A stretch of 33,617 nt of DNA from Spirochaetes bacterium ADurb.Bin215 (GTDB lineage: Bacteria > Spirochaetota > Spirochaetia > Treponematales > Treponemataceae): contig MWCL01000017.1 in NCBI GenBank assembly GCA_002070025.1, positions 1-33,617 of the forward strand, written 5' to 3'. The position numbers and the translations under genes are program-made. The notes below the pieces were generated by a model. The model did not search any database. It was not told the DNA's origin and saw only the letters and a program-made list of their open reading frames with translations. This document shows positions 86 through 29,173 of this stretch, piece by piece (the first letter of the stretch is position 1; each line of letters opens with the position of its first letter).

Positions 86-114
86 TTGACCTTGAATCTC
101 CGGTGCCGTATCTT
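86..114 (+). promoter_or_regulatory. putative sigma-70 promoter of rpoN
   Basis: TTGACC at 86-91 and TATCTT at 109-114 are separated by 17 bp. The predicted transcription start lies near 120-122, only a few bases before the ATG at 125, so the transcript would be leaderless or nearly so. No Shine-Dalgarno sequence precedes that ATG. The promoter is inferred from sequence only. Confidence 0.4.
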
Positions 115-124
115 GAAAGTACCA

Positions 125-1540
125 ATGCAAGGGCAAAAACTCGTTCTGTCGCAGCAGCAGCGTCTCACCCTCAGTCCTCAGCTTGTTCAGTCAATCAAGC
201 TGATGGCAATGCCGTTTGCCGATCTTCGGGAACGCATACTGGAAGAAGTTGAGAAAAATCCCGCCCTTGAAGTTGTATCGGATCCGTTCGAATCCATTCC
301 ATGGTCTCAGCGGGAACCAGCATCCCGAATTTCGGTATCTACCGTACGTAGTAATGATGATGAAAGCGATGCGCACCGGGACTATATCGAGGGAGCGCTT
401 TCACGTGAGGAAACGCTGCAGGAACACCTGCTCGAACAGCTAGGCGAGCTCGTTCTGGAACCTCGCGTACGTGCCCTTGCGGAACTGGTTGTCCAGAATC
501 TTGATCCCGATGGATTCCACCGGGTCCCCCCTGAAGAACTGTCCGGAGCCGATGATCCCGCGGTGCTGCACAAGGCACTCGATACGGTCCGCCGTCTTGA
601 ACCGGTCGGTTGCGCTGTACGGGACTTCCACGAGAGTCTGCTTGTGCAGGCAATGGTTCTCCGGGACCGGTATACCGCAGGGAAAACCGATCCCGGTCTT
701 GAGACAACCATTCACATACTTGATAAGTATTTTCATCTTCTGGAGAAAGGCCGTCCCGATGCGTTGGTGAAGGGACTCGCCAAGGAACCGGATGCCGGGT
801 TTACCCTCGACCTTGAGGGCGCGGAAGAGGTGTTCGACATTATCAGGATGCTCGATCCTTTCCCCGGGCGGATTTTCGACAGTTCTCCGGAAACATACAT
901 TGTCCCCGACGTGTTCGTAAACAGGAGCGAGGAGGGGTATTCGGTTGTAATCAACGAGGAAGAGGTTCCTGTTCTGGGTATTTCACCATTTTTCATGGAA
1001 CTGGAAGAACAGGTAGATGATTCCGCCAGAGACTTCGCCCGGGAGGCGGTTAAGGAAGCACGCTGGTTTTTGGGCACTATCGAACGCCGAAATCTCACAC
1101 TGCTCAAGCTGGTACGGGCGCTTGTCGTATTTCAGCGCGAGTTTTTCATACATGGTCCGACTCGCCTCATGCCCTTGCGCATGAAGGATGTCGCCGAAGA
1201 AATCGGTATGCATGAGGCAACGGTTTCACGCGCGGCGAACGGGAAGTATCTCCAGTGTGAATGGGGTACATTCGAAATACGGTACTTTTTCAGTAACCGG
1301 GTGGGCTCTCCGCCGCGAACCGGCTCGCGGACTCCTGATCAGGCGGGCGGGTATACTTCGGGACGTTTTTCCAAGCAGGGTGTCAAAGAGGTAATACGGG
1401 AGCTCATCGAGAGTTCGGAAACAGCTCTTTCCGACCAGAAAATCACGGAACAGCTCAAGACACGCGGTATTCATATAGCCCGCAGAACGGTCGCCAAGTA
1501 CCGGGCCGAGCTTTCCATTGCTTCGTCATTTGAAAGATAA
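125..1540 (+). CDS. rpoN: RNA polymerase sigma-54 factor RpoN
   Basis: Sigma-54 directs RNA polymerase to -24/-12 promoters and needs an AAA+ activator to melt DNA. From the ATG at 125 the protein has 471 residues, close to the family norm. The glutamine-rich activator-interaction region is at residues 1-45 (LSQQQRLTLSPQLVQSIKLM). The core-binding domain is near 90-300, a helix-turn-helix near 353-373 (VAEEIGMHEATVSR), and the RpoN box ARRTVAKYR at 452-460. The frame stays open upstream, to an ATG at 20, but those extra 35 residues look unlike the family and overlap the promoter and the shared element, so I choose 125. It heads a block with hpf, hprK and ptsH, resembling the proteobacterial rpoN-hpf-pts locus. 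Confidence 0.95.
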   Translation: MQGQKLVLSQQQRLTLSPQLVQSIKLMAMPFADLRERILEEVEKNPALEVVSDPFESIPWSQREPASRISVSTVRSNDDESDAHRDYIEGALSREETLQEHLLEQLGELVLEPRVRALAELVVQNLDPDGFHRVPPEELSGADDPAVLHKALDTVRRLEPVGCAVRDFHESLLVQAMVLRDRYTAGKTDPGLETTIHILDKYFHLLEKGRPDALVKGLAKEPDAGFTLDLEGAEEVFDIIRMLDPFPGRIFDSSPETYIVPDVFVNRSEEGYSVVINEEEVPVLGISPFFMELEEQVDDSARDFAREAVKEARWFLGTIERRNLTLLKLVRALVVFQREFFIHGPTRLMPLRMKDVAEEIGMHEATVSRAANGKYLQCEWGTFEIRYFFSNRVGSPPRTGSRTPDQAGGYTSGRFSKQGVKEVIRELIESSETALSDQKITEQLKTRGIHIARRTVAKYRAELSIASSFER

Positions 1541-1565
1541 TCAATTCCATATTATTATTAGAGAA

Positions 1566-1585
1566 GGTACCGCTGTTGCGGTGCC
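1566..1585 (+). other. hairpin in the rpoN-hpf gap
   Basis: GGTACCGC and GCGGTGCC form an 8-bp stem with one G-T wobble and a TGTT loop. It lies between the rpoN stop and the Shine-Dalgarno of hpf. No U-run follows directly, so it is not a classical intrinsic terminator. It could be an mRNA processing, stability or attenuation element. Confidence 0.45.
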
Positions 1586-1610
1586 CTACATCTTTCAGGG
1601 AGGTTCATCA

Positions 1611-1901
1611 ATGAATATCAACGTACAGGCAGTCAAATTTTCCATGGATGAGGATCAAAAAGAGTTCGTGGACAAGAAACTTGAGCGGATCCGCTTTGCC
1701 GAGGATCTGATCACGGATGTTCTGCTAAATATAAAATACGACAAGAAATTTTCCTATGAATGCACGGTGAATTTTCGCTGGGGGGATGTTGCTCACGTAT
1801 CAACCGAGGACTTCTCCTTTGAACCGGGGTTGAACAAGATGGTCGATGTGCTCGATCAGAAAATCAAGAAAGAAAAGGACAAGATTCAGGAGAAAAAATA
1901 A
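1611..1901 (+). CDS. hpf: Short ribosome hibernation-promoting factor (HPF/RaiA family)
   Basis: The 96-residue product matches the short HPF type: an N-terminal strand (MNINVQAVKF), then DEDQKEFVDKKLERI, a central basic stretch, and a lysine-rich C-terminal helix. Such proteins bind the 30S decoding region and help form inactive 70S dimers or protect idle ribosomes in stationary phase or starvation. A strong Shine-Dalgarno GGGAGG at 1598-1603, 7 nt before ATG 1611, fixes the start; the longer frame from 1518 would begin inside rpoN. Its place directly after rpoN is the same as in proteobacteria. There is no long-form dimerisation domain. Confidence 0.9.
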   Translation: MNINVQAVKFSMDEDQKEFVDKKLERIRFAEDLITDVLLNIKYDKKFSYECTVNFRWGDVAHVSTEDFSFEPGLNKMVDVLDQKIKKEKDKIQEKK

Positions 1902-1927
1902 GCAAACGCGGGTTTGTGTTCCTTCTC

Positions 1928-1956
1928 TTTACATAACGGATTCGTAAGGATATAGT
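1928..1956 (+). promoter_or_regulatory. sigma-70-like promoter abutting the hprK start
   Basis: TTTACA at 1928-1933 and TATAGT at 1951-1956 (each 5 of 6 to consensus) are separated by exactly 17 bp. The ATG of hprK starts only 6 nt after the -10 box, where transcription would normally begin, so the mRNA is predicted to be leaderless. An AAGGA at 1946-1950 is 11 nt from the ATG and would lie upstream of the predicted transcript; it could act only in read-through mRNA. Confidence 0.55.
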
Positions 1957-1961
1957 CAGGT

Positions 1962-2951
1962 ATGGCTGTTAAACGGTTTTCCGTGCTCGACCTGCTTGGC
2001 TTGAATCTCAAGGAACACGACTCTCTTGATTTGCGCTGTATTTGCGGTCGGCGGGGTTTGGTGCGGGAAATAACCATACCAGATCTCAACCGGCCCGGTT
2101 TGGCGCTTTCGGGTTTTTATGATTCGTTCGCGTATCAGCGGGTACAACTGTTCGGTCGTGGAGAAGTGGCGTTTTTGAACAAGCTCGTTACCGAGGGTAA
2201 ACTCGAAACAATCGAGCAGATGTTCACGTATCCGCTTCCGTGTTGCATTTTTACTCATAATCTTGATCCGGCAGACGAGTTTTCTGCCATAGCGGAGAAC
2301 TCAGGATGTGCCGTACTGCAAACCGGGCTGGATTCGAGCGAGTTTTCGTCCCGGCTTTTGCGGATTTTGTCCAATATATTCGCCCCCAAGATTTCAATTC
2401 ACGGGGTTTTGGTGGAAGTGTACGGTCTCGGGATTCTCATCCTCGGCGATTCCGGGGTCGGGAAAAGTGAAACCGCACTTGAGCTTATTGAGCGCGGACA
2501 CCGCCTTGTGGCGGATGATGTTGTCGAGATATCTTGTGTAAACGGTAATATACTGATCGGGCAGGGTGCCAACAAGATTATCGGGCACCACATGGAAATA
2601 CGCGGTCTCGGAATCATCAATATCACCCAGCTTTACGGAGTCGGGTCGATCCGTGAGCGCAAGGAAGTTCAGCTGGTGGCGACCCTGGAGGAATGGGATG
2701 CCAACAAGGTGTATGACCGCCTGGGGACCGAAAAGTTGACCATGGACATTCTCGGCGTCCAGGTTCCCAAGATTGAAATACCGGTTAAGCCCGGACGGAA
2801 CGTTCCCATTATTCTGGAAACGGCCGCGATGAATGAACGGCTCAAGAGTATGGGGTATTTCTCCGCGAAGGAATTCAACCAGAATGTCCTGAAGTGGATT
2901 GAATCCGATGCTGCCCGCGCGCCATATTACGGCGACGATGATTCTTATTAG
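1962..2951 (+). CDS. hprK: HPr kinase/phosphorylase
   Basis: HprK phosphorylates and dephosphorylates Ser46 of HPr in response to metabolites and phosphate. The 329-residue length is typical. Visible motifs are the conserved His147 before the P-loop (ISIHGVLVEVYG), Walker A GDSGVGKS at 162-169, HRLVADD at 180-186, the HprK signature EIRGLGIIN at 212-220, and the C-terminal region PVKPGRN. ptsH, encoding its substrate, follows 12 bp downstream. This kinase is classically Firmicute but is also known in spirochaetes and some proteobacteria, where sugar uptake by the PTS may be absent and the system is thought to be regulatory. A good promoter sits immediately ahead of the ATG, so the gene may be transcribed both from rpoN read-through and on its own. 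Confidence 0.95.
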   Translation: MAVKRFSVLDLLGLNLKEHDSLDLRCICGRRGLVREITIPDLNRPGLALSGFYDSFAYQRVQLFGRGEVAFLNKLVTEGKLETIEQMFTYPLPCCIFTHNLDPADEFSAIAENSGCAVLQTGLDSSEFSSRLLRILSNIFAPKISIHGVLVEVYGLGILILGDSGVGKSETALELIERGHRLVADDVVEISCVNGNILIGQGANKIIGHHMEIRGLGIINITQLYGVGSIRERKEVQLVATLEEWDANKVYDRLGTEKLTMDILGVQVPKIEIPVKPGRNVPIILETAAMNERLKSMGYFSAKEFNQNVLKWIESDAARAPYYGDDDSY

Positions 2952-2963
2952 AGGACTTGCTAA

Positions 2964-3230
2964 ATGACGACCAAGACAGTGACTATCAGGAACCGCGCCG
3001 GAATACACGCCAGGCCTGCAGCGCTCATCGCGCAAACCGCGAACCGTTTTGCTTCGGAAATACTGATAGAGCGGGACAATACCCGGATCAACGCGAAATC
3101 GATCATGGGTATTATCACCATGGCGGCCAGTTACAACACCCAGCTTACCATTTGCGCCGACGGGACGGACGAGAAAGAAGCCGTTGAGGCGCTCGACCTC
3201 CTGTTTGAGAACAAATTCGAGGAAGATTGA
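2964..3230 (+). CDS. ptsH: Phosphocarrier protein HPr
   Basis: An 88-residue HPr. Both phosphorylation sites are intact: His15 within GIHARPA (target of enzyme I) and Ser46 within NAKSIMGI (target of HprK). Having both sites means it can link phosphoenolpyruvate status to HprK regulation. AGAGGA 8 nt upstream of ATG 2964 is a reasonable ribosome-binding site. It lies 12 bp after hprK and its stop overlaps the putative TTG start of the next gene. No enzyme I or enzyme II gene is in this window. Confidence 0.95.
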   Translation: MTTKTVTIRNRAGIHARPAALIAQTANRFASEILIERDNTRINAKSIMGIITMAASYNTQLTICADGTDEKEAVEALDLLFENKFEED

Positions 3231-4345
3231 ACCAGTTACGGCGGGTAATTCCCGCCACGATATTCAGTATTCCCTTTCTCCTGTTCCTTTTTGTGCTTGT
3301 TCTTGTTGCTTCGTATTTGCTCGCGGACAATAGTATCAGCGGTCTTTTTTCACCTACCATGTTTTCGACTCCGCGGGGTTTCCTGCTTCTTGTCGTAGCG
3401 CCGCTTTCATTGATTCTTTTCCTGTGTTTATTCTTTTACATGCTCTTTTCCCATACCTGGCATACCGGCAGATCAAGCCGTTTCGGACGGAAAATTTTCG
3501 TGCTTCTTGCTGTTCTTGTTACGGTAACGTCTCTTTCCATAACCCTCATTGTCGGGCGGTTTACCGGTATAGCCGTATCAAGCGGGTTTGACGGTGATGT
3601 TCCCGAAGCGCTTCGTGCCGCACGAGAGATATCAGACCTGTACCAGAATGAACGAAAACTGGCGATTGAACGGGTATCCTTCCGGTTTTTTAATGGGCTT
3701 GCCATTGTCAATCAGCGGGCGATGCGCCGCGACTGGATGGACGAACTGCGGGTCGTTGACGCGTACGCCGCGGCCTGTCAGGTATATCGTGAAGACGCAA
3801 ACGTGACACCGTACGGGTACGAAGCGGTTATTGAAACCGGCGACATGGATTATTTCTTTCCCCGTGAAGAGTTGTATACGGTCCGCGACGGATTTTTCCC
3901 GCCCAATGCTGACGACCGGGTTCTCCGGTACGGCAAGCTTGTACGGTACAGCAATGAAACCTATGTCTGTGTATATTCATCGCTCATTCCCACGCAATTG
4001 TTTGCCCGGGATGCACTGATTCGAACCGTATACGAGGAGTCCAGGGTCATCAATGCCCTGGATCGCATCATGCCGTATCTGGGATTGTGGATCTTCTTCA
4101 TGTTCTGTCTTCCGCCGGTCATGATGGCGGTCCTGCTCGGGTATGTTCTGGTCATGCATCTGGTAACCCCGCTCGGTTCGGCTGCGGAGTTTTCCGGCTT
4201 GCTTGTGGAGGGGAACCGGAGTTTCCGGCTCGTGCCGAAAGGCGGTGATGAAGCAGGGGTTATCGCGGAGAACCTGAATCGCCTTGCGGAAAAACCGGCG
4301 GAATCCGAAAAACGGGGCGACAAAAAGGCCAGCTTGCGGTTATAA
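3227..4345 (+). CDS. Membrane sensor-like protein, NtrY-like N-terminal half without a kinase
   Basis: This is a 372-residue membrane protein. Hydrophobic segments are visible at about 10-33, 50-74 and 89-111, followed by a roughly 170-residue extracytoplasmic region, a fourth segment at 284-313 and a HAMP-like stretch (TPLGSAAEF...GDEAGVIAENLNRL) ending near 358. Three N-terminal helices, a sensor loop, a helix and HAMP is the layout of the NtrY histidine kinase before its PAS and kinase domains. No HisKA or ATPase domain follows, and holA begins 21 bp later. The start is TTG 3227, overlapping the ptsH stop (TTGA) with GAGGA just upstream; I see no in-frame ATG that keeps the first helix. 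It may be a receptor working through protein contacts. Family assignment is inference from architecture. Confidence 0.65.
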   Translation: MNQLRRVIPATIFSIPFLLFLFVLVLVASYLLADNSISGLFSPTMFSTPRGFLLLVVAPLSLILFLCLFFYMLFSHTWHTGRSSRFGRKIFVLLAVLVTVTSLSITLIVGRFTGIAVSSGFDGDVPEALRAAREISDLYQNERKLAIERVSFRFFNGLAIVNQRAMRRDWMDELRVVDAYAAACQVYREDANVTPYGYEAVIETGDMDYFFPREELYTVRDGFFPPNADDRVLRYGKLVRYSNETYVCVYSSLIPTQLFARDALIRTVYEESRVINALDRIMPYLGLWIFFMFCLPPVMMAVLLGYVLVMHLVTPLGSAAEFSGLLVEGNRSFRLVPKGGDEAGVIAENLNRLAEKPAESEKRGDKKASLRL

Positions 4346-4346
4346 T
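4317..4346 (+). promoter_or_regulatory. possible promoter of holA
   Basis: A perfect -10 hexamer TATAAT at 4341-4346 overlaps the stop codon of the preceding gene. A weak -35 match, GCGACA, lies 18 bp upstream. The predicted leader is about 14 nt and contains the Shine-Dalgarno GGAAGGA, so this would be an ordinary leadered transcript, unlike hprK. Confidence 0.35.
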
Positions 4347-4366
4347 GCCGCAGGAAGGAACCGTGT

Positions 4367-5368
4367 ATGGCAGCAGCAGCTCCCGTCTGGTTGTTCACCG
4401 GTCCGGAAATTGGTGAACGCAACGAGGCGGTACAACAACTCAAGGCTCAGGCAATAAAGACGCATGGAGATCCGGAAATGCATACGGTCTACGCGGGGGA
4501 TACGCCCTTCGGCGAGCTTGTTTCCCTGCTCCAGAACGGATCGCTTTTTTCCTCCGCGCGGTTTGTAACCCTGCGCAATGCCGAGCTCATCAAGAAAAAA
4601 GAAGATATTTCCCAGCTTGTTTCCTGGGCGGAGGAGTCCTGTGGCCGGGACGACGTGTATCTCGTGCTCATTTCCGATGAAATCGGCGTGGATAAAAAAG
4701 TGGAAGCCTGTGTCGCAAAAGAACGAAAGCGTATTTTCTGGGAACTTTTTGACGACCGCAAGGAACAGTGGATAACCGCCTTTTTCCGGAAGGAAGGGTA
4801 CCGTATTGAACCGGAAGCCGTGTCCGCGATCCTGGAGACGGTGGAAAACAATACCGACGCGCTCCGGACCGCCTGTTCGCGGCTAATGCTTTTTTTTGAT
4901 AACGATCATGGTATTACGGAAGACGATATCATAACCCACGTATCCCACAACCGGGAAGAAAACGCGTTTACCCTGTTCGACGCGCTTACCCATCGTGACG
5001 CAGAAGCCGCTCTCGCCATTCTTGAGAAAATATCCCTTTCAAAGGATTCTTCGCCGGTTCAGGTGATTGCCGGAGTGACCTATTGTTTCCGCCGGCTCGC
5101 TGACTGGCACCGGCTTGCCTCGCGGGGCGTTCACGACGAGTTCGGCTTGAAAAAAGCCGGGTTCTCGGGGAAACGGGCCCTCTCCCAGTACCGCCGTGCA
5201 GCCGACGTGTGGGATGCTTCAGCGGTTTCCCGGGTGCTGGCGCTTCTGGCGGAAACAGACCGGGATCTGCGTGCGTCGGGAACCGCAGTGCACCGCATTC
5301 TGCTCGATACCGGTATTCTCGGCATCCTGAAAACAGCCGGCACACCCCCGCGGTCCCGCCGCCAGTAA
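4367..5368 (+). CDS. holA: DNA polymerase III delta subunit
   Basis: The delta subunit is the clamp-loader 'wrench' that opens the beta sliding clamp. The 333-residue length fits the family. The N-terminal fold begins VWLFTGPEIGERNEAV, the degenerate P-loop-like segment of HolA. FSSARFVTLRNAE and the following acidic segment match the clamp-binding domain, and the C-terminal helical collar includes ENAFTLFDALTHRD and the QVIAGVTYCFRRL helix. GGAAGGA upstream supports ATG 4367. It converges on the next minus-strand gene with 11 bp between stops and no terminator. Sequence divergence is typical of this subunit, so the call rests on the overall pattern. Confidence 0.85.
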   Translation: MAAAAPVWLFTGPEIGERNEAVQQLKAQAIKTHGDPEMHTVYAGDTPFGELVSLLQNGSLFSSARFVTLRNAELIKKKEDISQLVSWAEESCGRDDVYLVLISDEIGVDKKVEACVAKERKRIFWELFDDRKEQWITAFFRKEGYRIEPEAVSAILETVENNTDALRTACSRLMLFFDNDHGITEDDIITHVSHNREENAFTLFDALTHRDAEAALAILEKISLSKDSSPVQVIAGVTYCFRRLADWHRLASRGVHDEFGLKKAGFSGKRALSQYRRAADVWDASAVSRVLALLAETDRDLRASGTAVHRILLDTGILGILKTAGTPPRSRRQ

Positions 5369-5379
5369 CCTCCGCCTCT

Positions 5380-9149: not shown

Positions 9150-9181
9150 ACCATCCTGCCGATATTCTGATAAGTACCGTT

Positions 9182-10684: not shown

Positions 10685-10705
10685 CCAAAACCGAGGAGAC
10701 TCCAG

Positions 10706-14587: not shown

Positions 14588-14616
14588 ACTATACGCAATT
14601 TCTTTGACAGGGTAAA
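14588..14616 (-). promoter_or_regulatory. promoter of the M24 peptidase gene, predicted leaderless
   Basis: On the minus strand TTTACC (14616-14611) and TATAGT (14593-14588) are 17 bp apart. Eight bases separate the -10 box from the ATG at 14579, so transcription would start at or within 2 nt of the start codon. Confidence 0.5.
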
Positions 14617-14632
14617 GCAAATACGCTACCAT
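14604..14632 (+). promoter_or_regulatory. promoter of the GPH symporter gene
   Basis: A perfect -35 TTGACA at 14604-14609 lies 17 bp before TACCAT at 14627-14632. Transcription would start near 14639, giving a leader of about 24 nt that contains the Shine-Dalgarno GGAGGG. The -35 box sits inside the spacer of the opposing M24 promoter, so the two promoters occlude each other. Confidence 0.55.
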
Positions 14633-17644: not shown

Positions 17645-17673
17645 TTGAATCTGCTGTGGTTTCCGGGCATAAT
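17645..17673 (+). promoter_or_regulatory. promoter of the activase gene, predicted leaderless
   Basis: TTGAAT at 17645-17650 and CATAAT at 17668-17673 are 17 bp apart. The ATG at 17681 is 7 nt beyond the -10 box, so it coincides with the expected transcription start. No Shine-Dalgarno sequence exists ahead of it. Confidence 0.55.
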
Positions 17674-17680
17674 GACCATC

Positions 17681-20600
17681 ATGACAAACAGCACAGTATT
17701 GCGTGTGGGTATAGACGTCGGATCAACGACGGTAAAGATAGTTGTTCTGTCCCCGGAAGGGGAAATCCTTCACAGCAAATATGAACGGCACCGTGCCGAT
17801 ATACGGACCACGATAATTTCGGTTGTTGAGCAGGCGCTCGATATTCTTGATGAAAAATACCCGGGGAAACCGGATGATCCGGCGCGTCCGCTGTTGAGCA
17901 TCATGGTTACCGGTTCGGGCGGTCTTGCCGTTTCCCACTGGCTTTCAGTGCCGTTTGTTCAGGAAGTTATCGCCTCCACAACTGCCGTGCGGAAAATGAT
18001 TCCGAAAACCGATGTCGCGATAGAGCTTGGCGGCGAAGACGCTAAAATTACCTATTTTACCAATGGTATCGAACAGCGCATGAACGGTACCTGCGCGGGA
18101 GGCACCGGCGCCTTTATTGACCAGATGGCCGCCCTTCTGGAGACCGATGCCAACGGATTGAACCTTCTTGCCCGCGACGCGACCAATCTGTATCCAATAG
18201 CGGCCCGTTGCGGTGTATTCGCCAAAACGGACGTTCAGCCCCTCATAAACGAAGGCGCGCGCCGGGAAGATATTGCCGCGAGCATTTTCCAGGCGGTGGT
18301 GAGCCAGACCATTTCGGGTCTTGCCTGCGGGAAGCCCATCAGGGGACACGTCGCTTTTCTGGGCGGACCACTCCACTTCATGGATATGTTGCGATTCAGG
18401 TTTATCGAGACCTTGAAACTCAAGGAGGACGAGATCCTTGTTCCGGCGGACTCCCAGCTCTTTGTCGCCGCGGGTGCAGCCTGGACCGCACCGTTCCCGT
18501 CGGATGAAGCACAGGAAAATGAAAAGGAAGAACCGAAGTTCATTACCATAGAAGCGCTCCGTACCGGTCTGAAGACCCTGGTGGATGCGGAGATGAATGA
18601 AATTCAGCGGCTTGACCCGCTGTTCGCGAATGAAAAGGAACTTGAAGAATTCCGTATCCGCCATGCGTCCGAGATGGCCGCGTCCGCGGATCTTGATACG
18701 GCAAAGGGTCCGGTGTTTCTCGGTCTGGACGCGGGTTCAACCACCACCAAGGCGGTCCTGGTCGACGAAAACGGCCGGATCCTCTGGCGGTTCTACAGCA
18801 ATAACGGCGGAAATCCGGTGGATCTCGCCGTCCGGGTGCTCAAGGATCTGTACCGCCGTCTTCCCGATACGGTACGCATCATGCGTTCCTGTTCAACCGG
18901 ATACGGCGAAGCGCTTTTCCAGGCCGCACTCGGTGTCGATACGGGCGAGGTAGAAACCATCGCGCATTACCGGGCCGCGGATTTCTTCGTTCCGGGCGTG
19001 GATTTTATCCTGGATATCGGCGGACAGGACATGAAGTGTCTCCGCATGAAAAATGGAGCCATTACGTCCATCCAGCTCAACGAAGCCTGTTCGTCCGGCT
19101 GCGGCAGCTTTCTGGACAATTTCGCCCGATCGCTCGGCCTTGATATTGCAACATTCTCAAACAAGGCGCTGCTGGCCCAAAAGCCGGTAGACCTGGGAAG
19201 CCGGTGTACCGTGTTCATGAATAGCCGCGTCAAGCAGGCCCAGAAAGAGGGTGCGTCGGTTGGAGACATTTCCGCCGGGCTTTCCTATTCGGTTATCAAG
19301 AACGCGTTGTTCAAGGTTATTAAACTCCGCGATGCTTCGGCCATCGGCGAAAAGGTTGTCGTTCAGGGCGGAACCTTCAATAATGACGCGGTACTGCGGG
19401 CTTTTGAAAAGATTTCAGGCAGGGAGGTGTTCCGACCGGATGTTGCCGGCCTCATGGGCGCCTACGGGGCGGCTCTTATCGCCCTCGATCAGTGGAAGGC
19501 AGCAGGTGCTCCGGGCGATGCCAGAACAGGACTTGCTACAATCGAACAACTGGAGAATTTCAAGGTGGAACTGGAACTGCGCCGTTGCGGCAAGTGTTCC
19601 AATAACTGTCTGCTTACCATAAACACGTTCTTCGCCGGGATTTCCACCGCCGGACCGGTTGAACAGATGGCCGCGCCGCCGCGCCGCTTCATTACCGGAA
19701 ACCGGTGTGAGCGCGGACTCGAAATAGATCTCTCGGTCAAACCCGAAAAAGGCGACCTCACCCATGCGGGTAATTCGGGTTCGATGGAAATTCCCGAGAA
19801 CCATGATGAGGTTGTCGGTATCGGAAAGCCCGAGAAACGGCCGGTGCCCAACCTTTTTGACTGGAAATACAAGCGCTTGTTCCGCTACAAACCCCTTTCT
19901 GCCCAGGAAGCTCCCCGCGGAGACGTGGGTATTCCCCGCGTCCTGAACATGTACGAAAACTACCCGCTGTGGTTTACCTTGTTTACCAAGCTCGGATTCC
20001 GGGTGCGTCTTTCTCCGCGTTCCAGCCGCCATATTTACGAAAAGGGGCTAGAATCGATTCCCTCCGAGTCGGTCTGTTACCCCGGAAAGATCAGTCACGG
20101 TCACGTGGAAACCCTGTTGCAGGCCGGTGTCAAGTTCATCTTTTATCCCTGCGCACCCTACGAGCAGGTTGAGGATGAAGGAGTCGGCAATTCATACAAC
20201 TGTCCCATTGTTACCAGTTATCCCGAAGTACTCAAAAACAACATGGACGCGCTCCGGCAGGACGGGTCCATTGTGTACATGGATCCCTTCCTCCCCATCA
20301 ATGACGAGAAGCGTCTTGCCGAGCGGCTCTTCGAAGAACTCTCCCCCCGCTTTGACCTGACCCGTTCCGAAGTTCGGGATGCGGTGCACGCGGCGTGGCT
20401 CGAACAGGAAGCCTTCCGCGATGAAACTGCCCGGAAGGGCGAAGAAACGCTCGCGGAAATCCGTGAGCGCGGTCTCAAGGGTATCGTTCTTGCCGGTCGG
20501 CCCTACCATCTTGATCCTGAAATCAATCACGGAATACCGGAACTCCTCACGGGGCTCGGTCTCGCGGTTTTTACGGAAGATTCCGTGGCCCATCTGGGTA

Positions 20601-22168
20601 ATATCGAACGGCCCCTGCGCATTGTTGACCAGTGGACCTATCACAACCGGCTTTACCGCGCGGCGCAATACACCACCGGTAACCGCGACATCGAGCTTGT
20701 CCAGCTTACGAGTTTTGGCTGCGGTCTCGACGCGGTAACCTCCGATCAGGTTCAGGAGATTCTTGAAGCCAAGGGGCGCATGTACACGCTGATAAAGATT
20801 GACGAGGGTTCCAACCTCGGCGCCGTACGCATCCGTATGCGCAGTCTCATCGCGGCGATAAAGGAACGCGACCGCCGGGAGACGGAAGAAAAAATTCGTC
20901 CCGCAAGCTACAAGCGTGTGGTGTTTACCAAAGAGATGAAAAAACGGTACACCATCCTCGCTCCTCAGATGTCTCCTATCCATTTCAGGCTGCTGCAGCA
21001 TGCCTTTGAATACTCGGGATTCAACTTTGTCATTCTTCCCGATGTTGACGCGAAAGCGGTTGATACCGGCTTGCAGTACGTAAACAACGATGCCTGTTAT
21101 CCGTCCATAATCGTGGCCGGTCAGATGATCGAGGCGCTCAAGTCGGGTCAGTATGACCTGGACAGCGTTGCCCTGCTCATAACGCAAACCGGCGGCGGAT
21201 GCCGGGCGACGAACTATATCGGATTTATCCGCCGTGCCCTGTCGGATATCGGCTGGGGACATATTCCGGTCATCAGTTTGAGCGCGCAGTCGATCGAAAA
21301 AAATCCGGGATTTGTGATTACGCCCGCGCTTCTTCACCGCGCCATGATGTCCATCATGCTCGGCGACCTTCTTATGCGCGTCCTGTATCGCACCCGCCCG
21401 TACGAGGCGGTTCCCGGCTCGGCAAACGAGCTGTACGAGAAGTACAACACCCGGGCTGTAGCGCAGTTGAAGAGTCTTTCCATCCGCGGATACAACCGGC
21501 TTGTCCGGGATATTGTGAGAGATTTCGATTCCCTGCCGCTCCGGATGGTCCACAAGAGCCGGGTCGGCGTTGTAGGCGAGATTCTCGTCAAGTTCCATCC
21601 GACTGCCAATAACGACATCTTCTCGACCATCGAACGCGAGGGCGCCGAATGTGTCGTGCCCGATCTGGCAGACTTTCTCTTTTATTCGTTCATCAACGGG
21701 GTCTACAAGCACCGAAAACTTGCCTTTCCGAAAAAGACGGAACGAAATGCGCATCTGTATGTCTGGTTTCTGGAACGATACCGTACACAGATCAAGAAGT
21801 CGCTTGAACGGAGCAAAAGGTTTACTCCTCCCGAATCGATTTACCGGCTTCAGGACGGCGTTGAGGACATCGTTTCACTCGGGAATATGACCGGTGAAGG
21901 CTGGTTCCTTACCGCGGAGATGATAGAGCTCATTCATTCCGGAGTTCCCAGCATCGCCTGTGTGCAGCCCTTTGCCTGTCTGCCCAACCATGTTACCGGA
22001 AAGGGCATGATCAAGGAGCTGCGCCACCGGTTCCCGGAAGCGAATATCGCGGCTATTGACTATGATCCCGGAGCAAGCGAAGTAAACCAGTTGAACCGGC
22101 TGAAACTCCTTCTGGCAAACGCGCCGCTCGGAACGCACCCGGACGAAACAAAGAACGGCAACCGCTAG
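17681..22168 (+). CDS. Acyl-CoA dehydratase activase, BadF/HgdC double ASKHA plus DUF2229
   Basis: A 1495-residue protein of the long 2-hydroxyacyl-CoA dehydratase activase-related family. Two ASKHA ATPase units are seen: DVGSTT near residue 12 with NGTCAGGTGAF near 135, and LDAGSTTTK near 348 with ACSSGCGSF near 469. Cysteines in the second unit (470, 474) resemble the iron-sulfur site of HgdC/BadF activators. A second cysteine group (636, 639, 643, 676) precedes the large C-terminal DUF2229/HgdB-like region, which has cysteines in SVCYPGK, YPCAPYE and NDACYPS. The classical role is ATP-driven low-potential electron transfer to a dehydratase or reductase, but the role of these long fusions is unproven. 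No dehydratase subunit gene is adjacent. ATG 17681 is preferred; a TTG at 17645 is part of the -35 box, and ATG 17672 is possible. Confidence 0.88.
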   Translation: MTNSTVLRVGIDVGSTTVKIVVLSPEGEILHSKYERHRADIRTTIISVVEQALDILDEKYPGKPDDPARPLLSIMVTGSGGLAVSHWLSVPFVQEVIASTTAVRKMIPKTDVAIELGGEDAKITYFTNGIEQRMNGTCAGGTGAFIDQMAALLETDANGLNLLARDATNLYPIAARCGVFAKTDVQPLINEGARREDIAASIFQAVVSQTISGLACGKPIRGHVAFLGGPLHFMDMLRFRFIETLKLKEDEILVPADSQLFVAAGAAWTAPFPSDEAQENEKEEPKFITIEALRTGLKTLVDAEMNEIQRLDPLFANEKELEEFRIRHASEMAASADLDTAKGPVFLGLDAGSTTTKAVLVDENGRILWRFYSNNGGNPVDLAVRVLKDLYRRLPDTVRIMRSCSTGYGEALFQAALGVDTGEVETIAHYRAADFFVPGVDFILDIGGQDMKCLRMKNGAITSIQLNEACSSGCGSFLDNFARSLGLDIATFSNKALLAQKPVDLGSRCTVFMNSRVKQAQKEGASVGDISAGLSYSVIKNALFKVIKLRDASAIGEKVVVQGGTFNNDAVLRAFEKISGREVFRPDVAGLMGAYGAALIALDQWKAAGAPGDARTGLATIEQLENFKVELELRRCGKCSNNCLLTINTFFAGISTAGPVEQMAAPPRRFITGNRCERGLEIDLSVKPEKGDLTHAGNSGSMEIPENHDEVVGIGKPEKRPVPNLFDWKYKRLFRYKPLSAQEAPRGDVGIPRVLNMYENYPLWFTLFTKLGFRVRLSPRSSRHIYEKGLESIPSESVCYPGKISHGHVETLLQAGVKFIFYPCAPYEQVEDEGVGNSYNCPIVTSYPEVLKNNMDALRQDGSIVYMDPFLPINDEKRLAERLFEELSPRFDLTRSEVRDAVHAAWLEQEAFRDETARKGEETLAEIRERGLKGIVLAGRPYHLDPEINHGIPELLTGLGLAVFTEDSVAHLGNIERPLRIVDQWTYHNRLYRAAQYTTGNRDIELVQLTSFGCGLDAVTSDQVQEILEAKGRMYTLIKIDEGSNLGAVRIRMRSLIAAIKERDRRETEEKIRPASYKRVVFTKEMKKRYTILAPQMSPIHFRLLQHAFEYSGFNFVILPDVDAKAVDTGLQYVNNDACYPSIIVAGQMIEALKSGQYDLDSVALLITQTGGGCRATNYIGFIRRALSDIGWGHIPVISLSAQSIEKNPGFVITPALLHRAMMSIMLGDLLMRVLYRTRPYEAVPGSANELYEKYNTRAVAQLKSLSIRGYNRLVRDIVRDFDSLPLRMVHKSRVGVVGEILVKFHPTANNDIFSTIEREGAECVVPDLADFLFYSFINGVYKHRKLAFPKKTERNAHLYVWFLERYRTQIKKSLERSKRFTPPESIYRLQDGVEDIVSLGNMTGEGWFLTAEMIELIHSGVPSIACVQPFACLPNHVTGKGMIKELRHRFPEANIAAIDYDPGASEVNQLNRLKLLLANAPLGTHPDETKNGNR

Positions 22169-22206
22169 TCAAGGGAAGGGTGTATTTTGCCGATAATCGT
22201 AGCGGT

Positions 22207-23541
22207 ATGACCCAGATGAACCGCTTCGTTTTGTCAGTATTCCTTGTTTTTCTCGTCGCTTCCGCCGCTTTTTCCCGTGATTTGACGAATCCGCCCGAAG
22301 GATTTGTCGAAACGGCGGATGTCCGGGGAGACCTGTTTGACGACTGGCTGTCCGCCGGTATTTCCCCGCTCATGTCGCTTGCTTCCGACGAGGTTACCGA
22401 CCGCTTCGGCCGTGTATTTGCGGTACGCCGGGAACGGGACGACGAGAACGGTTCGCTCGCGGTCCGCATCCAGGCAAGGGACGCGGCGGGAATTCAGGGG
22501 CAGTGGGTGTTGTACCGCAGTTTTTCCGACGGCCTTCCCCATGAAATCCGCCTATATCCTCTCGATAATTCCCATATATGGGTTTCCCTTTTCCCGGGGG
22601 ATTCCGGACCCGAATCCGGAAAATCGCGTCTTGATCTGGTCCTCTATGGTTCTACCGCCGTGTCCGGTATCCCGGTCGGCGTTCCGCTCGTAAAACTCTA
22701 TACCGCGTCGTTTCAGGACATCATGCTCATGACCCGCGCGCTCGTCCCCTGGGATCTTCTTGACCATCATGTCGATGATTACGCGGCGGCCCGCTCGGCG
22801 GTGTCGGTTATCCGTGACCGCCTGCCGTCGCTGGTGTATCTTGATGACGGGGCTTTTGATCATGACGGCCGGCCGGTCCATATACGGGACGGGTCGCCCC
22901 AGCGTCCCGCTGAAGTGCTTTCCGCGCTCGGTCCGGGGCAGACTCCGGACAATATCGCCGGAGGCGTGAACTGTTCGGGGTTCGCCAAGTGGATTGTTGA
23001 CGGAATCGTGTACCCGGAAGCGGGATCACGGCTCTTCCTTGATCCGCTCAAGAAACAGACCGATTCCCCCGAAACTCATTTCACCGAGCCCTTCAGGGAA
23101 TCCCGCGATGTTTTTTTCGCCCTGGACTGGACCCGTCAGCTCGCGAGCGCGGTTGTGTCCCTTGGCGGACGAGGAACGGTGCTTCCCGCCGAATCGGGTG
23201 TTGATGTAACTGCAGACCCCTTTCCGGGCTTCGCCCGGCATGTTCCCGGAGTCGGGTACCGTTCCGGGGCCCTGCAATCACTGTTGTACTGGCTCGCCAT
23301 CCGGGAGAGCGGCCATATGTACCTCGCGGCGATAAGCCGTGAACGGGGAGATCCCCCATTGCGACAATATCATCATATTGCCGTGTTGTTTCCTTATTTT
23401 GACGAAAACGGACAATTTACCATAACGGTATTCGAAAGTGCTGCGGAAACACCGTATCCGCTGTTTGTCTCCAGAAACGATGATGCGTATATTCATCTGG
23501 TACGGGTACGCTGTCCGGAAAAGGGACGTTTTATTCCGTAA
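22207..23541 (+). CDS. Exported protein with NlpC/P60-like Cys and His motifs, possible amidase
   Basis: From ATG 22207 the product has 444 residues with a clear signal peptide (FVLSVFLVFLVASAAFS, cleavage near AFS-RD), so it is periplasmic. I do not recognise the full-length family. The central motif GGVNCSGFAKWIVDG (Cys256) closely resembles the nucleophile motif of NlpC/P60 or CHAP peptidases, and the C-terminal YHHIAVLFPYF (His389/His390) followed by an ENG turn resembles their His strand. The spacing of about 130 residues between Cys and His is much longer than usual, so an insertion would be needed. It opens the envelope cluster leading to exbBD-tonB. No Shine-Dalgarno precedes it; GATAAT at 22192-22197 lies 9 nt before the ATG. 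An upstream GTG at 22180 is less likely. Confidence 0.65.
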   Translation: MTQMNRFVLSVFLVFLVASAAFSRDLTNPPEGFVETADVRGDLFDDWLSAGISPLMSLASDEVTDRFGRVFAVRRERDDENGSLAVRIQARDAAGIQGQWVLYRSFSDGLPHEIRLYPLDNSHIWVSLFPGDSGPESGKSRLDLVLYGSTAVSGIPVGVPLVKLYTASFQDIMLMTRALVPWDLLDHHVDDYAAARSAVSVIRDRLPSLVYLDDGAFDHDGRPVHIRDGSPQRPAEVLSALGPGQTPDNIAGGVNCSGFAKWIVDGIVYPEAGSRLFLDPLKKQTDSPETHFTEPFRESRDVFFALDWTRQLASAVVSLGGRGTVLPAESGVDVTADPFPGFARHVPGVGYRSGALQSLLYWLAIRESGHMYLAAISRERGDPPLRQYHHIAVLFPYFDENGQFTITVFESAAETPYPLFVSRNDDAYIHLVRVRCPEKGRFIP

Positions 23542-23600
23542 AAAACGTGTTACCTTTACGGGATACCCGGTATTTACCGGTTTGAGGTACGTTTCTGTTT

Positions 23601-25517
23601 ATGACTACTACTGCACGCGCTTCAGCAATTGTTCTTTTCCTCTTCTTCGCCGGAGTCCCGGGCGCCTCCGAGACCGCCGTACGCGACGTGTTCGAACAGG
23701 CTCAATCCGCCGCGTCTCCCGCGGAATCGATACGAATTCTTGAAAAAGGTTTGCCCGATTCGGGCGAATGGCGTTTTTTGTACCTCATGGAAATAACCCG
23801 GCTGTATGGAAATCTTGCGGACTGGCCGTCCGCGCTCACCGCGGTTAATCGCATTACACCTGACATGATTCCCCCGGCGCATGCTGACCGGCATGCCTAT
23901 TTGCTTGCCCTTGCCCGCGAAAACACCGGCGATACCGGTGCCGCCGAACAAACGTATCATGACCGGATCTTCGGCTCCGAAGCCCGTGAACCGCTTCTGT
24001 ATTTGGGATATCTGCGGCTTTCGTCCGCAGGAGCGCAAAAAACGCTTGCCCGTATGGACGCCATGCTACCGGATCTCCGGAAAACCGATCCTGACTCCTG
24101 GCTGTTGTCCCGGTATCTCGGGGGACTTGTCGCGGTCAGGGAAGGGCAATGGGCTTTCGCCGCGGATCTTTTTTCCCTCGTTCTCGACGGTCCTGAACGG
24201 GCGCCAGAAGAGTATCTCCCCTGGGCTTCCTTCTATCATGGATGGAGCTTGTACCGGACCGGGACCTGGGAAAAAGCGTATGGCGCCCTGTCGTTGTATC
24301 TCGAAAAATTTCCGGATCATGAGCGGGTGTGGCAGGCCTCAACCGCAGCGGCTTTTTGCGCCATGCAGACCGGCCGCGACCCGCTCCGTCACGCGGATAG
24401 GGCGGTTTCCCGCGCGCCGACTCCCCGTGACCGCGCGGAAGGGCTCCTTTTCAAGGCATCCATACTGCTCGACCGGGGCGACCACGCCGGTGCGGCAACA
24501 CTACTGCTTTCTGTCGCAGACGGTACCGCTACGTCGGGTTTGACCGTGTTTTCACCGCGCGCGCGATTCATGCTGGCGGATGCCGCGTTTTCCCGCCGGG
24601 ATTTTGCCGAAGCGGAAAAGCACTGGCTCGCGGTCTACCGTGATTTTTCCGACGACCCGCTTGCGGAGGAAGCTCTTTTCCGGGCGGGAGAACAGTGGTA
24701 CCTGCAGGATCGGGCGGACCGGGCGGTGCAGTTATTCACCCGGTATCGGCAAAACCATCCGAATGGAAAATATACCGATCTTGTATTGAAAAATGGCGGG
24801 GAAGCCCTTCGCATGCAGGGAAAAACCGATCTCGCCATCCTCTGGTGGGAATCGTTCGCAACCCGTTTCCCCAAAAGCCGGCTCATGCCCCGTGTATTGA
24901 ACGATCTTGTTTCCGCCTATCGTGATTCCGGCGATTACGCCGCCGCGCTCCGCATGGCGAGAACCTATGCCAATGACTATCCCCGCGAAGCGGAAGCCGA
25001 CCGGATTGCCGGTGAAATTGAAACGCTCGAACTGCTCAACCGGGGGGCCGCTCCCGATACTGCAGCAGTCGCGGTTGAATATCGAAGACTCGGTGGTGCG
25101 GAAACAGGCGAAGGCCGTTCCAAAGCACTGGTTCTCGCGCGGATCTATCTTGCGGACGCGGGCCGGCACGCGGAAGGCCGGCGGATTCTTGAAGAAGTAA
25201 CAGCAACCCTTCCCCGGAACACGGCCATGCTGTCCCGGACGGACCGCGCGGTATACGCGGGCGCGGAAATGCTGCTGGGTAACCATTTACGGGAAACCGG
25301 CGATTTTTCCGCCGCATCCCGGGCCTTCCTGTCGGCGGGGACCCTGTTTGCGCCCATAGACGGCGAACGCGCCGCCGAAGCACTCTACGGCGCAGTAGAC
25401 AGTTTTCTGAGGACTGACCGCCGCGGAGACGCGGAAAAGGCCCTTGAAACCATGCGTTCGTCCTGGCCGCGTTCGGTCTGGACACAACGGGCCGCCCGTC
25501 TCCTGGGCGCTGAATAA
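23601..25517 (+). CDS. Periplasmic TPR-repeat protein
   Basis: A 638-residue exported protein with signal peptide (AIVLFLFFAGVPGAS-ET) and no lipobox cysteine. Most of the rest is helical TPR-like repeats, including ADLFSLVLDGPERA, ARFMLADAAFSRRDFAEAEKHW and AVQLFTRYRQNHPNGKY. The last type resembles the YbgF/BamD repeats used in Tol-Pal and outer-membrane assembly. It lies 59 bp after the putative amidase and 11 bp before the barrel gene, so it is probably part of the same envelope complex, perhaps as a scaffold. No Shine-Dalgarno is at the usual distance; GAGG is 13 nt from the ATG. The precise role is unknown. Confidence 0.75.
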   Translation: MTTTARASAIVLFLFFAGVPGASETAVRDVFEQAQSAASPAESIRILEKGLPDSGEWRFLYLMEITRLYGNLADWPSALTAVNRITPDMIPPAHADRHAYLLALARENTGDTGAAEQTYHDRIFGSEAREPLLYLGYLRLSSAGAQKTLARMDAMLPDLRKTDPDSWLLSRYLGGLVAVREGQWAFAADLFSLVLDGPERAPEEYLPWASFYHGWSLYRTGTWEKAYGALSLYLEKFPDHERVWQASTAAAFCAMQTGRDPLRHADRAVSRAPTPRDRAEGLLFKASILLDRGDHAGAATLLLSVADGTATSGLTVFSPRARFMLADAAFSRRDFAEAEKHWLAVYRDFSDDPLAEEALFRAGEQWYLQDRADRAVQLFTRYRQNHPNGKYTDLVLKNGGEALRMQGKTDLAILWWESFATRFPKSRLMPRVLNDLVSAYRDSGDYAAALRMARTYANDYPREAEADRIAGEIETLELLNRGAAPDTAAVAVEYRRLGGAETGEGRSKALVLARIYLADAGRHAEGRRILEEVTATLPRNTAMLSRTDRAVYAGAEMLLGNHLRETGDFSAASRAFLSAGTLFAPIDGERAAEALYGAVDSFLRTDRRGDAEKALETMRSSWPRSVWTQRAARLLGAE

Positions 25518-25528
25518 GGGAGTTAGCT

Positions 25529-27163: not shown

Positions 27164-27187
27164 CAGTAACGAGGAATGGAGGTTCCC

Positions 27188-27805
27188 ATGATTGCAATTC
27201 TGATTTCCGGCGGTCCCGCCATGATACCCATCCTGCTGTGCGCGCTGATCGCCACGGTCATCATCATTGAGCGGGTCAGGTATTTTTCGTCAATAAAGAA
27301 AGGCCAGCGGGATCTGCTTCCGCGCCTTAAAAGCTCCCTGGACAAGGGTCATTACGACGAGGCCGCCGCAATCTGCGACACGGTCGAAAGCCCGGTGTCC
27401 CGTCTCATGAAAACGGGTATCGCGTACCGGGAGTACAGCGAGGCGGCCATCAAGGAAGCCGTCATGAACCAGGCGAACCGTGAAATCCCGCGGCTGGAGC
27501 GATATCTCTCCACATTGGGGACGATAGCGAATATCGCGACACTGCTCGGCCTTCTGGGTACGGTTACCGGTAACATCCAGGCGTTCGGAGTACTCGGCGA
27601 CATGGGAACCATGGGAAATCCGGCCGTACTCGCCGGAGCCATTGCCCAGGCGCTGGTTACCACGGCTACCGGACTCATAGTCTCGATCCCGGCCATTATT
27701 TTCTATAATTACTTCATTGCCGAAGTAAACCGGATGATCACCGAAATGGAATCTTCCGTCAGTGATCTTGTCCTTTTGCTCGCGGCGGGGAAACGGAATT
27801 CATGA
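27188..27805 (+). CDS. exbB: ExbB/TolQ/MotA-family proton channel subunit
   Basis: A 205-residue inner-membrane protein with transmembrane segments near 10-28, 108-128 and 152-176. The family motif TLGTIANIATLLGLLGTVTG and the following ALVTTATGLIVSIPA are diagnostic of ExbB/TolQ proton channel proteins, which form a pentamer around ExbD/TolR and couple proton flow to TonB or TolA motion. The start at 27188 has GGAGG 5 nt upstream; the in-frame ATG at 27176 has no usable site. It overlaps exbD by 4 bp (ATGA). Linkage to a tonB gene favours the ExbB name over TolQ, but the two cannot be told apart by sequence alone. Confidence 0.9.
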   Translation: MIAILISGGPAMIPILLCALIATVIIIERVRYFSSIKKGQRDLLPRLKSSLDKGHYDEAAAICDTVESPVSRLMKTGIAYREYSEAAIKEAVMNQANREIPRLERYLSTLGTIANIATLLGLLGTVTGNIQAFGVLGDMGTMGNPAVLAGAIAQALVTTATGLIVSIPAIIFYNYFIAEVNRMITEMESSVSDLVLLLAAGKRNS

Positions 27806-28206
27806 AGTTCAAACGGAGACTCGAAGCACGGGCAGGGGTAGACCTGGTTCCCATGATCGACGTTGTTTTCCAGCTCATTCTCTTCTTTTTGGTGGCCACG
27901 ACCTTCGCGGTATTGCCGGGGATTGAACTCGATCTTCCGGTATCGTCCACGGCGGAAAGCACCCGGACCAACGGAATTACCATTTCGGTGTCCCGTGAAG
28001 GGCAGCTCTACGTGAATTCTGACGAAGTTGCCCTTGAGGCACTGGATGAAGCGCTCATGGCTGTCGCCGTCGACGGCGCCCGCGAAAAGGTTCCGGTCAG
28101 TCTGGAAGCCGACGCGGCTGTCCCGAACGGGCAGATCGTGCAGATTCTGGATTCGCTGCGGCGAACCGGATTTACGGGCGTAAACCTCCGGACCATGGAC
28201 AGGTAG
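27802..28206 (+). CDS. exbD: ExbD/TolR-family protein
   Basis: A 134-residue protein with one N-terminal transmembrane helix that carries the essential aspartate (Asp20 in VPMIDVVFQLILFFL), then a periplasmic domain. The aspartate is the proton-carrying residue of ExbD/TolR. DLVPMIDVVFQLILFF is the family hallmark. Its ATG overlaps the exbB stop by 4 bp, showing translational coupling, and tonB starts 4 bp after its stop. Confidence 0.93.
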   Translation: MKFKRRLEARAGVDLVPMIDVVFQLILFFLVATTFAVLPGIELDLPVSSTAESTRTNGITISVSREGQLYVNSDEVALEALDEALMAVAVDGAREKVPVSLEADAAVPNGQIVQILDSLRRTGFTGVNLRTMDR

Positions 28207-28210
28207 CCGC

Positions 28211-29173
28211 ATGCTTGAACTGGACGCACGGGACAAAAACAGACTTGCCCAAAGCTCGATCATCGCGGCAGCGGTCTGGCTCGTCATGCTGATTATTTTC
28301 ACGCTGTTACCGGTTATGCGGGATGTCCCCGAGGAACGCGCTTTCCCCGAGGTGCGCATCACGCTGAACCGGGAAGATCCGGTGCCGGTACAAACCCGGA
28401 CGGTAGCGCCGGCGACGAGTTCAGCCGAACCGGCCGTACGTCCCGCCGCGGCGCGGCAGGAAAAATCCGCACAGAAACCCGCCAACGCGCCGCCGGTGCG
28501 GCAAAAAACGTCTTCGGGGCTCGGAATCCCGGATTTTCAGAGTACGTCCGGCCGGGAAGCGGCCGCGCCCTCGGGAGAATATCTTGATTTTTCCAGCGAT
28601 CGGCCACGGGAACAGACGGTCCAGGAACCCGGTCCGGTACTCCGCGAATTTGAGGGCAGTGCGGCACGCGTTGACGAACCGGCCGCGCGGCAGGGAACCG
28701 CCACCGTGGAGGGCGGAAGCCGCGTTTCCGCTGCTTCGGATGAAACGCTCCAGGCCCTGGACCGGATCCGTGCCGGCAATGAGGGCGGTGTGACCGTTCC
28801 GGACGGAGCCGCTTCCACGTCTCCCGCTTCGACAACCGGCCGCACCGCGGACACCGACGTGGCAACCACGCCCGGCATGGTAGGCCCCATAACCTTTGAA
28901 GGCACTGCCCGCCGCCTCCTGTATCCGGCGAAGCCCGGGATCATCCTGCCTCCCCATTTGGCGCGGCTCATTGATTCGGACCGATCGGTAACGGTGCTCT
29001 TTGTTGTCCGTGCGGACGGCTCGGTTCCGGCTTCCCTTGTCCGGTTCAGCCCCTCGGCTCTTTTACCGCCCGAGGTTCAGAATTATCTTAAAAACGAGTT
29101 TTCAACCTGGCGGTTTGAACGCGGCAGCGACGATGGACAGGCGCGGTTCCTGTATAGTATAACAGTACAATGA
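28211..29173 (+). CDS. tonB: TonB-like energy transducer
   Basis: A 320-residue protein with a short cytoplasmic end, one transmembrane helix (about 14-34, SSIIAAAVWLVMLIIFTLL), a long low-complexity Ala/Pro/Glu/Arg linker (about 40-230) able to span the periplasm, and a C-terminal domain (about 235-320) whose end (VTVLFVVRADGSV...NYLKNEFSTWRFERG) follows the TonB C-terminal pattern. It should carry energy from ExbB/ExbD to an outer-membrane protein, with the barrel encoded three genes upstream as the obvious candidate. The linker is less proline-rich than in E. coli TonB. The stop overlaps the next start (ATGA). TolA is an alternative name. Confidence 0.82.
   Translation: MLELDARDKNRLAQSSIIAAAVWLVMLIIFTLLPVMRDVPEERAFPEVRITLNREDPVPVQTRTVAPATSSAEPAVRPAAARQEKSAQKPANAPPVRQKTSSGLGIPDFQSTSGREAAAPSGEYLDFSSDRPREQTVQEPGPVLREFEGSAARVDEPAARQGTATVEGGSRVSAASDETLQALDRIRAGNEGGVTVPDGAASTSPASTTGRTADTDVATTPGMVGPITFEGTARRLLYPAKPGIILPPHLARLIDSDRSVTVLFVVRADGSVPASLVRFSPSALLPPEVQNYLKNEFSTWRFERGSDDGQARFLYSITVQ
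29134..29163 (+). promoter_or_regulatory. internal promoter ahead of the HAD gene, predicted leaderless
   Basis: TGGACA at 29134-29139 and TATAAC at 29158-29163 (each 5 of 6 to consensus) are 18 bp apart, inside the last codons of tonB. Only 6 nt separate the -10 box from the ATG at 29170. No Shine-Dalgarno precedes that ATG. Confidence 0.45.

Follow-up and report, generated by a model that had tools for sequence, protein, structure and literature searches.

The 33,617 nucleotide (nt) contig MWCL01000017.1 of Spirochaetes bacterium ADurb.Bin215 (assembly GCA_002070025.1), analysed here in full and referred to as the window, raises the question of how translation begins on genes, hprK and rpoN among them, that have a -10 promoter box 5-10 nt before the start codon and lack a Shine-Dalgarno (SD) sequence. 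An earlier note on this DNA had proposed eight such genes as leaderless, and its eight motif strings and spacings are all in the sequence as written. Our preferred reading, to which we give a probability of roughly 85%, is that sigma-70 transcription starts at the ATG or no more than ~4 nt before it and that the mRNAs are leaderless. The host would then have two start architectures, with most of its genes SD-led. In the second class, the housekeeping sigma-70 promoter would be set so close to the start codon that RNA synthesis begins with the A of the ATG or up to ~4 nt upstream; the ribosome would then take the 5'-terminal AUG directly with initiator tRNA and no SD, as described for leaderless mRNAs elsewhere in bacteria. 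Promoter elements, their constant distance from the start codon, a missing SD and conservation among orthologues are all observed, as are, for hprK and several other genes, start codons that fit the homologues; the RNA 5' ends and the mode of translation we infer from sequence. The box pattern as such looks both real and old.

The host assembly comprises 2.6 Mb in 189 contigs and is 95.5% complete; the window is its contig 17. Its HprK is 92% identical to that of two metagenome-assembled genomes (MAGs), Spirochaetales bacterium Spiro_10 and Treponema sp. AS08sgBPME_211, and 87% identical to that of Brucepastera parasyntrophica RmG11. These identities place the uncultured host in the Treponema group, as a relative of Brucepastera. 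Our genome-wide sample consisted of 834 kb of host DNA (the window and 40 other stretches) with 695 genes that have 80 nt upstream. Genes were called with a home-made, unbenchmarked coding model, in which starts were picked from coding score and start-codon weight and upstream signals were ignored. Any 4-mer or longer of AAGGAGGTGA counted as an SD, which gave 439 SD and 256 non-SD genes. This label is generous and puts the hprK and M24 peptidase genes of the window into the SD group (AAGG and AGGT inside or beside their promoters), and an acyl-CoA dehydratase activase-like gene (activase) escapes the TAnnnT count used below with its CATAAT box; to that extent, the number of leaderless genes errs on the low side. 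A search of the host genome that served mainly to learn the contig layout gave no match for Hfq.

Across this sample, TAnnnT was found 5-9 nt before the start in 76 of the 256 non-SD genes, against a mean of 23.1 (standard deviation 4.3, maximum 35) in 200 dinucleotide shuffles. The SD genes showed no peak, with 25/439 vs a shuffled mean of 27.2 and 36.6 expected from distant positions. The earlier note had predicted a peak limited to genes without an SD, and this is what was found, at 6-9 nt; a first sample of 434 kb gave the same picture. In the SD genes, TAnnnT forms a shallow rise at 17-24 nt genome-wide. Although a -35 element was not a selection criterion, a TTG aligned on the box was present in 46 of the 76 genes (29 with a spacer of 17 nt, 14 with 18 nt and 3 with 16 nt). 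Matches to TTGACA of at least 4/6 occurred at 16-18 nt in 35/76, compared with 5/76 at 10-12 nt, 6/76 at 22-24 nt and 459/4,664 behind TAnnnT inside genes. A pyrimidine at position -1 was more frequent in box genes with a distance of 6-7 nt (36/45) than in SD genes (267/439; p 0.014), as would be expected if transcription begins with the A of the ATG. After correction for chance, the leaderless share would be roughly 8-9% of all genes (raw counts of 76/695 with TAnnnT and 66/695 with the promoter model described below).

To follow single genes among relatives, we scored the 5-10 nt before each start with a promoter model (extended -10, -10 and -35), and an orthologue was counted as passing at a score of at least 3, with identical start regions counted once. 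Before counting, rows were dropped for hprK (6), M24 (2), activase (4), murJ (3), rpoN (22), gene 22207 (9), gene 23601 (9), holA (1) and uvrC (1), and none for HAD and HPr. The clearest case is hprK, where TTTACA (1928-1933, forward strand) is followed after 17 nt by TATAGT (1951-1956), CAGGT and the ATG (1962-1964); the window promoter scores 7.0 and is predicted to be leaderless. At 60% identity or more, 100 of 106 hprK orthologues pass (87 with a score of at least 5), vs 0/8 below 60%. Both hexamers are conserved in the 100 promoters, with three invariant -10 positions (the first, the second and the last), and the spacer mostly is not. Their distance from box to start is 6 nt in 59, 7 nt in 16, 5 nt in 14, 8 nt in 5, 9 nt in 5 and 10 nt in 1. 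Control orthologues rarely reach a score of 3 (HPr 1/91, holA 3/72, uvrC 1/9), and none reaches 5. The position of hpf matters: it was found upstream of hprK in 58 distinct loci, and the promoter was present in 52/52 with a gap of at least 38 nt vs 0/6 with a gap of 18 nt or less. The six hprK orthologues of the 106 that do not pass are the loci L125 (GGAGGG instead of the box), L325 (same order) and L326-L329 (same class). The hprK pattern is also present in the cultured relative Brucepastera parasyntrophica RmG11 and in Breznakiella homolactica RmG30 (loci L059 and L064). L125, a Treponema MAG, has lost the hprK box and has GGAGGG before the ATG, which would make it a natural switch from leaderless to SD-led initiation.

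It is possible, if unlikely, that the transcripts have very short leaders (1-10 nt) rather than being true leaderless RNAs, and that S1 or direct recognition of the start serves their translation. Leaders a few nt long would fit rpoN, gene 22207 (10 nt after GCCGATAA) and the 13 boxes at 8 nt and 20 at 9 nt among the non-SD genes. The rpoN promoter (TTGACC at 86-91, forward strand, 17 nt, TATCTT at 109-114, 10 nt, ATG at 125-127; score 7.0) has a predicted leader of about 0-4 nt, and at this distance a leader of 3-4 nt would be more likely than none; in L051 the distance for rpoN is 16 nt by eye. Against short leaders as the rule, 6 nt is the largest class both in hprK (59/100) and genome-wide, where non-SD boxes number 4, 26, 19, 13, 20, 3, 8 and 9 at 5 to 12 nt, respectively. 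By the usual rule, a box at 6 nt would put the transcription start on the A of the ATG.

The HAD hydrolase gene combines a start-codon promoter with a second possible mode of expression. Its promoter (TGGACA at 29134-29139, forward strand, 18 nt, TATAAC at 29158-29163, 6 nt, ATG at 29170-29172; score 4.1) lies within the last codons of the gene at 28211-29173, which is TonB-like by its position after exbBD and has no Pfam match. HAD might thus be expressed only by translational coupling to this gene, whose stop its ATG overlaps (ATGA, 29170-29173), with the -10 as a by-product of Tyr-Ser-Ile codons. We consider this improbable in view of codon usage in the 17 loci that have the tail of the preceding protein (the window included, one spurious match dropped). 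There the codons are near-frozen at TAT (17/17), AGT (16/16 serines), ATA (16/17) and GGA (17/17), against background usages of 0.49, 0.08, 0.20 and 0.31, while Ala and Arg codons in the same tail vary. Furthermore, 8 of 13 orthologues without the tail score at least 3 (12 were scanned for the tail; L240 was unscanned). These two results argue that HAD has a start-codon promoter as well as the ATGA overlap. Overall, 24/29 HAD orthologues pass (5/5 close, 19/24 distant), 4/29 with a score of at least 5.

In murJ, an extended -10, TGGTATTGT (17566-17558, reverse strand), with TG one base before the -10, is followed after 7 nt by the ATG (17550-17548). The earlier note had rightly seen no good -35 here but took the gene as a weaker fit; murJ can do without a good -35 because its box is an extended -10 (TGnTAT...). 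Its window score of 8.0 and that of HAD are slightly circular, as both genes are among the 72 sequences on which the model was trained. Passing orthologues numbered 18/26 (16/21 close, 2/5 distant; a score of at least 5 in 13). Elsewhere the extended -10 takes forms such as TGCTATGCT and TGCTAGCCT; by eye, and uncounted, many orthologues have TGG or TGC before the box. The activase promoter (TTGAAT at 17645-17650, forward strand, 17 nt, CATAAT at 17668-17673, 7 nt, ATG at 17681-17683) scores 3.6, and by eye members of the genus have TTGAA or TTGCA with CATNAT or CACTAT 6-8 nt before the ATG. On the reverse strand, the M24 peptidase gene has TTTACC (14616-14611), 17 nt, TATAGT (14593-14588), 8 nt and the ATG (14579-14577), with a score of 5.4. 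Two candidates remained below the pass mark, gene 23601 at 2.0 and gene 22207 at -2.8. The 12 other window genes scored -1.4 or lower (g9165 was excluded for a wrong start and gene 3227 left unscored).

M24 and the symporter gene are divergent (14588-14632), with their -35 boxes overlapping face-to-face (TTTACCCTGTCAA on one strand is TTGACAGGGTAAA on the other). The sequence TTTACCCTGTCAAAG is kept in members of the genus. On the symporter side, TTGACA-17-TACCAT is followed by a leader and an SD and scores 9.1 at 30 nt.

Several results weigh against our reading. For rpoN, 5/6 orthologues at 60% identity or more pass, and only 8/20 of the distant ones below. M24 passes in 11/11 close but 1/16 distant orthologues and is leaderless-like only within the genus; 14 of the 16 distant ones carry an SD, and the gene has changed its start mode. 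Activase passes in 7/25 orthologues, 1 of them with a score of 5. Among the six relatives from which we took 200 kb each, the non-SD excess (genes observed vs shuffled) was strong in G008 from the same genus (20 vs 6.1), G182 from the same class (18 vs 4.8) and G048 from the same order (14 vs 5.2). It was weak in G014 (13 vs 6.9, z 2.6), G025 (17 vs 10.2, z 2.5) and G064 (8 vs 3.8, z 2.3), where the observed values were within the range of 200 shuffles. A box excess in SD genes was absent in all seven genomes (the host and the six relatives). With first-in-operon-like genes defined by a divergent neighbour or a gap of at least 60 nt, the class included 53/316 such genes vs 8/296 operon-internal genes; nonetheless, the fold over local background was alike in both groups (57 vs 14.3 in 144 non-SD first-like genes, 9 vs 2.6 in 72 internal ones), so that operon position speaks for leaderless transcription only through the per-gene counts. 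Moreover, an SD precedes 172 of the 316 first-like genes, and 91 lack both signals. The split between leaderless and SD genes suggested earlier thus holds in that a leaderless-type class stands beside the SD genes, but it is not clean. ATG was the start codon in 73/76 box genes vs 390/439 SD genes, which is not significant (Fisher p 0.06). Finally, a search for the anti-SD tail gave no 16S rRNA match in the assembly, and for this reason the anti-SD of the host is not readable.

One further point of this kind comes from permuted patterns and bears on whether the boxes could be chance AT-rich DNA, kept open before SD-less starts, with the real transcription starts farther upstream. Non-SD genes generally need unstructured starts, and of five permuted patterns TnnnAT was also raised, with 10, 13, 7 and 11 cases at 6-9 nt. 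However, no permuted pattern had a peak comparable to that of TAnnnT, the -35 hexamer stands 17-18 nt from the boxes, and the hexamers of the 100 hprK promoters are conserved while their spacers drift. In addition, internal in-frame ATGs mostly lack the pattern: with two-fold cross-validation of the model, 66/695 starts scored at least 5 (53 non-SD and 13 SD-labelled), compared with 21/4,983 internal ATGs. We therefore regard a chance origin as very improbable. That the starts themselves are wrong, with true starts downstream and promoters that feed ordinary short leaders, is barely credible. In its favour, the caller is simple and activase has an in-frame ATG overlapping its -10; against it, HprK alignments start at residue 1-5 (80 loci) with ATG in 102 and GTG in 4 of 106 start codons, and for AsnS, MetG, RNase Z, SmpB, DeoC and MnmG the match to the NCBIfam model begins at residue 1-8.

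With regard to the functions of the putative leaderless genes, we inspected 20 of the 76 class members (score ranks 1-21, with murJ omitted), which by our judgement were mostly housekeeping. They included SmpB, MetG, AsnS, MnmG, MurE, RNase Z, DeoC, signal peptidase I, EFR1 ferredoxin and a Na/Pi symporter, along with weaker matches to topoisomerase B, HrpA, another helicase, MntR, a histidine kinase and a nucleotidase. Some of these matches were below the curated cut-off, and for four of the 20 genes NCBIfam gave no match at 1e-20. This list of mostly housekeeping genes, which was read without comparison to the functions of SD genes, does not support a stress or Hpf-linked regulon. The suggestion in the earlier note that the leaderless set might matter under hibernation by Hpf is a conjecture. 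In the host smpB gene (L131:1408-1875), the promoter 7 nt before the ATG matches the consensus in full (TTGACA-18-TATAAT).

Leaderless genes occur beside SD genes in Mycobacterium tuberculosis and Deinococcus deserti, which belong to lineages unrelated to the host. For these species 505 and 1,174 leaderless mRNAs, respectively, are cited in a study of Leptospira interrogans (PMC5243855). In its cited part, that study itself reports about 440 mRNAs with a leader of less than 10 nt, half of them with less than 2 nt, from differential RNA sequencing. Leptospira is in the same phylum and also has short-leader or leaderless mRNAs, but it is a more distant member, and RNA was measured there whereas the evidence here is from DNA; as far as the cited part goes, sigma-54 is reported and no other promoter motif. 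Within spirochaetes, the cited part of Zheng et al. 2011 (PMC3160421) gives leaderless genes as predicted in 6/18 genomes, at 3.9% (1.8-6.9) of genes. Their TA-led genes resemble ours in having TANNNT ~12 bp upstream from the first T (~6 nt from box to start), no SD and significance assessed by shuffling. Their share of 3.9% differs from our roughly 8-9%, yet the methods differ as well and the two shares are not strictly comparable; compared with what is cited from that work, -35 boxes and orthologue conservation are added here. More broadly, leaderless transcription is predicted for 21.6% of bacterial species according to a figure cited in the StartLink paper (PMC9581028). Among the matches listed in the open literature there was no transcription start map for the Treponema group.

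Leaderless genes are thus known in bacteria and mapped in Leptospira, and the new details are the hprK record and the near-frozen promoter inside the TonB-like gene. The Treponema group gains a clear and testable case of leaderless genes, in which hprK provides an unusually clean record: a promoter when apart from hpf and none when close behind it. The case also matters for annotation, where starts may be misplaced by gene callers built around an SD. Comparing hprK with the SD-led HPr gene next door makes it testable why leaderless starts persist in some genes. A doubtful extension is that leaderlessness itself is a selected trait of a conserved core, with hprK as its foremost member, followed by murJ and HAD. 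In that case hprK, freed from hpf, would have acquired its promoter at the start codon, perhaps in a single event, and the distance of 5-10 nt would have been retained throughout the Treponema group; the carbon-control kinase would be made without an SD and, under a shortage of ribosomes or initiation factors, may respond unlike HPr, its SD-led neighbour.

The contrast to hprK is visible in hpf, identified by a PF02482 match, where by eye TTGAAA (1530-1535, forward strand), 17 nt and TATTAT (1553-1558) precede a predicted leader of ~46 nt with a hairpin, the SD GGGAGG and the ATG at 1611 (feature 1530-1613). The hairpin, GGTACCGC-TGTT-GCGGTGCC at 1566-1585 before the SD, was also seen by eye and could control translation or transcription of hpf. 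In holA (4341-4366), a TATAAT box 20 nt before the ATG with an SD in between forms a short-leader counterpart to the leaderless genes.

Of the eight genes proposed as leaderless, hprK, M24, murJ, HAD, activase and rpoN (with a probable leader of ~3-4 nt) remain candidates, while two others were reassigned. Gene 22207 has GTCAAG (22168-22173, forward strand), 15 nt, GCCGATAA (22189-22196), 10 nt and the ATG (22207-22209), with a predicted leader of a few nt. We take GCCGATAA to be the -10 of sigma-28 (FliA), whose promoter consensus is TAAA, 15 nt, GCCGATAA. The host encodes FliA (TIGR02479, 293 bits, cut-off 189.6), and by its -10 we class the promoter as sigma-28-like; it departs from sigma-28 promoters in its -35 (GTCAAG rather than TAAA) and in the start codon 8-11 nt from the box. 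GCCGAT was found by eye 8-11 nt before the start in 12/18 other loci (10/11 within the genus, 2/7 outside), and the -35 position has GTCAAG in the window, L294, L299 and L301 and ATCAAG in L303. Sigma-28 boxes as a general leaderless class were rejected: the host sample has 8 upstream GCCGATA vs 4.1 expected, one of them at a leaderless distance, and G025 has two more at 7 nt. A second GCCGATA box in the window (9158-9165), between uvrC and a divergent gene (ATG 9182, 16 nt away), may be a sigma-28 site.

For gene 23601 the leaderless assignment was rejected. It has a GAGGT SD (23584-23588, forward strand) 12 nt before its ATG (feature 23584-23603), and the TACGTT (23588-23593) that had been read as its -10 is not conserved; an SD 5-mer or longer was present in 6/8 scored orthologues and a promoter in 1/8. 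The sequence GTGTTACC at 23547-23554, in front of gene 23601, is seen again in several orthologues, and L279 has the palindrome GTGTTACCATTGTGGTAACAC, which is operator-like in look.

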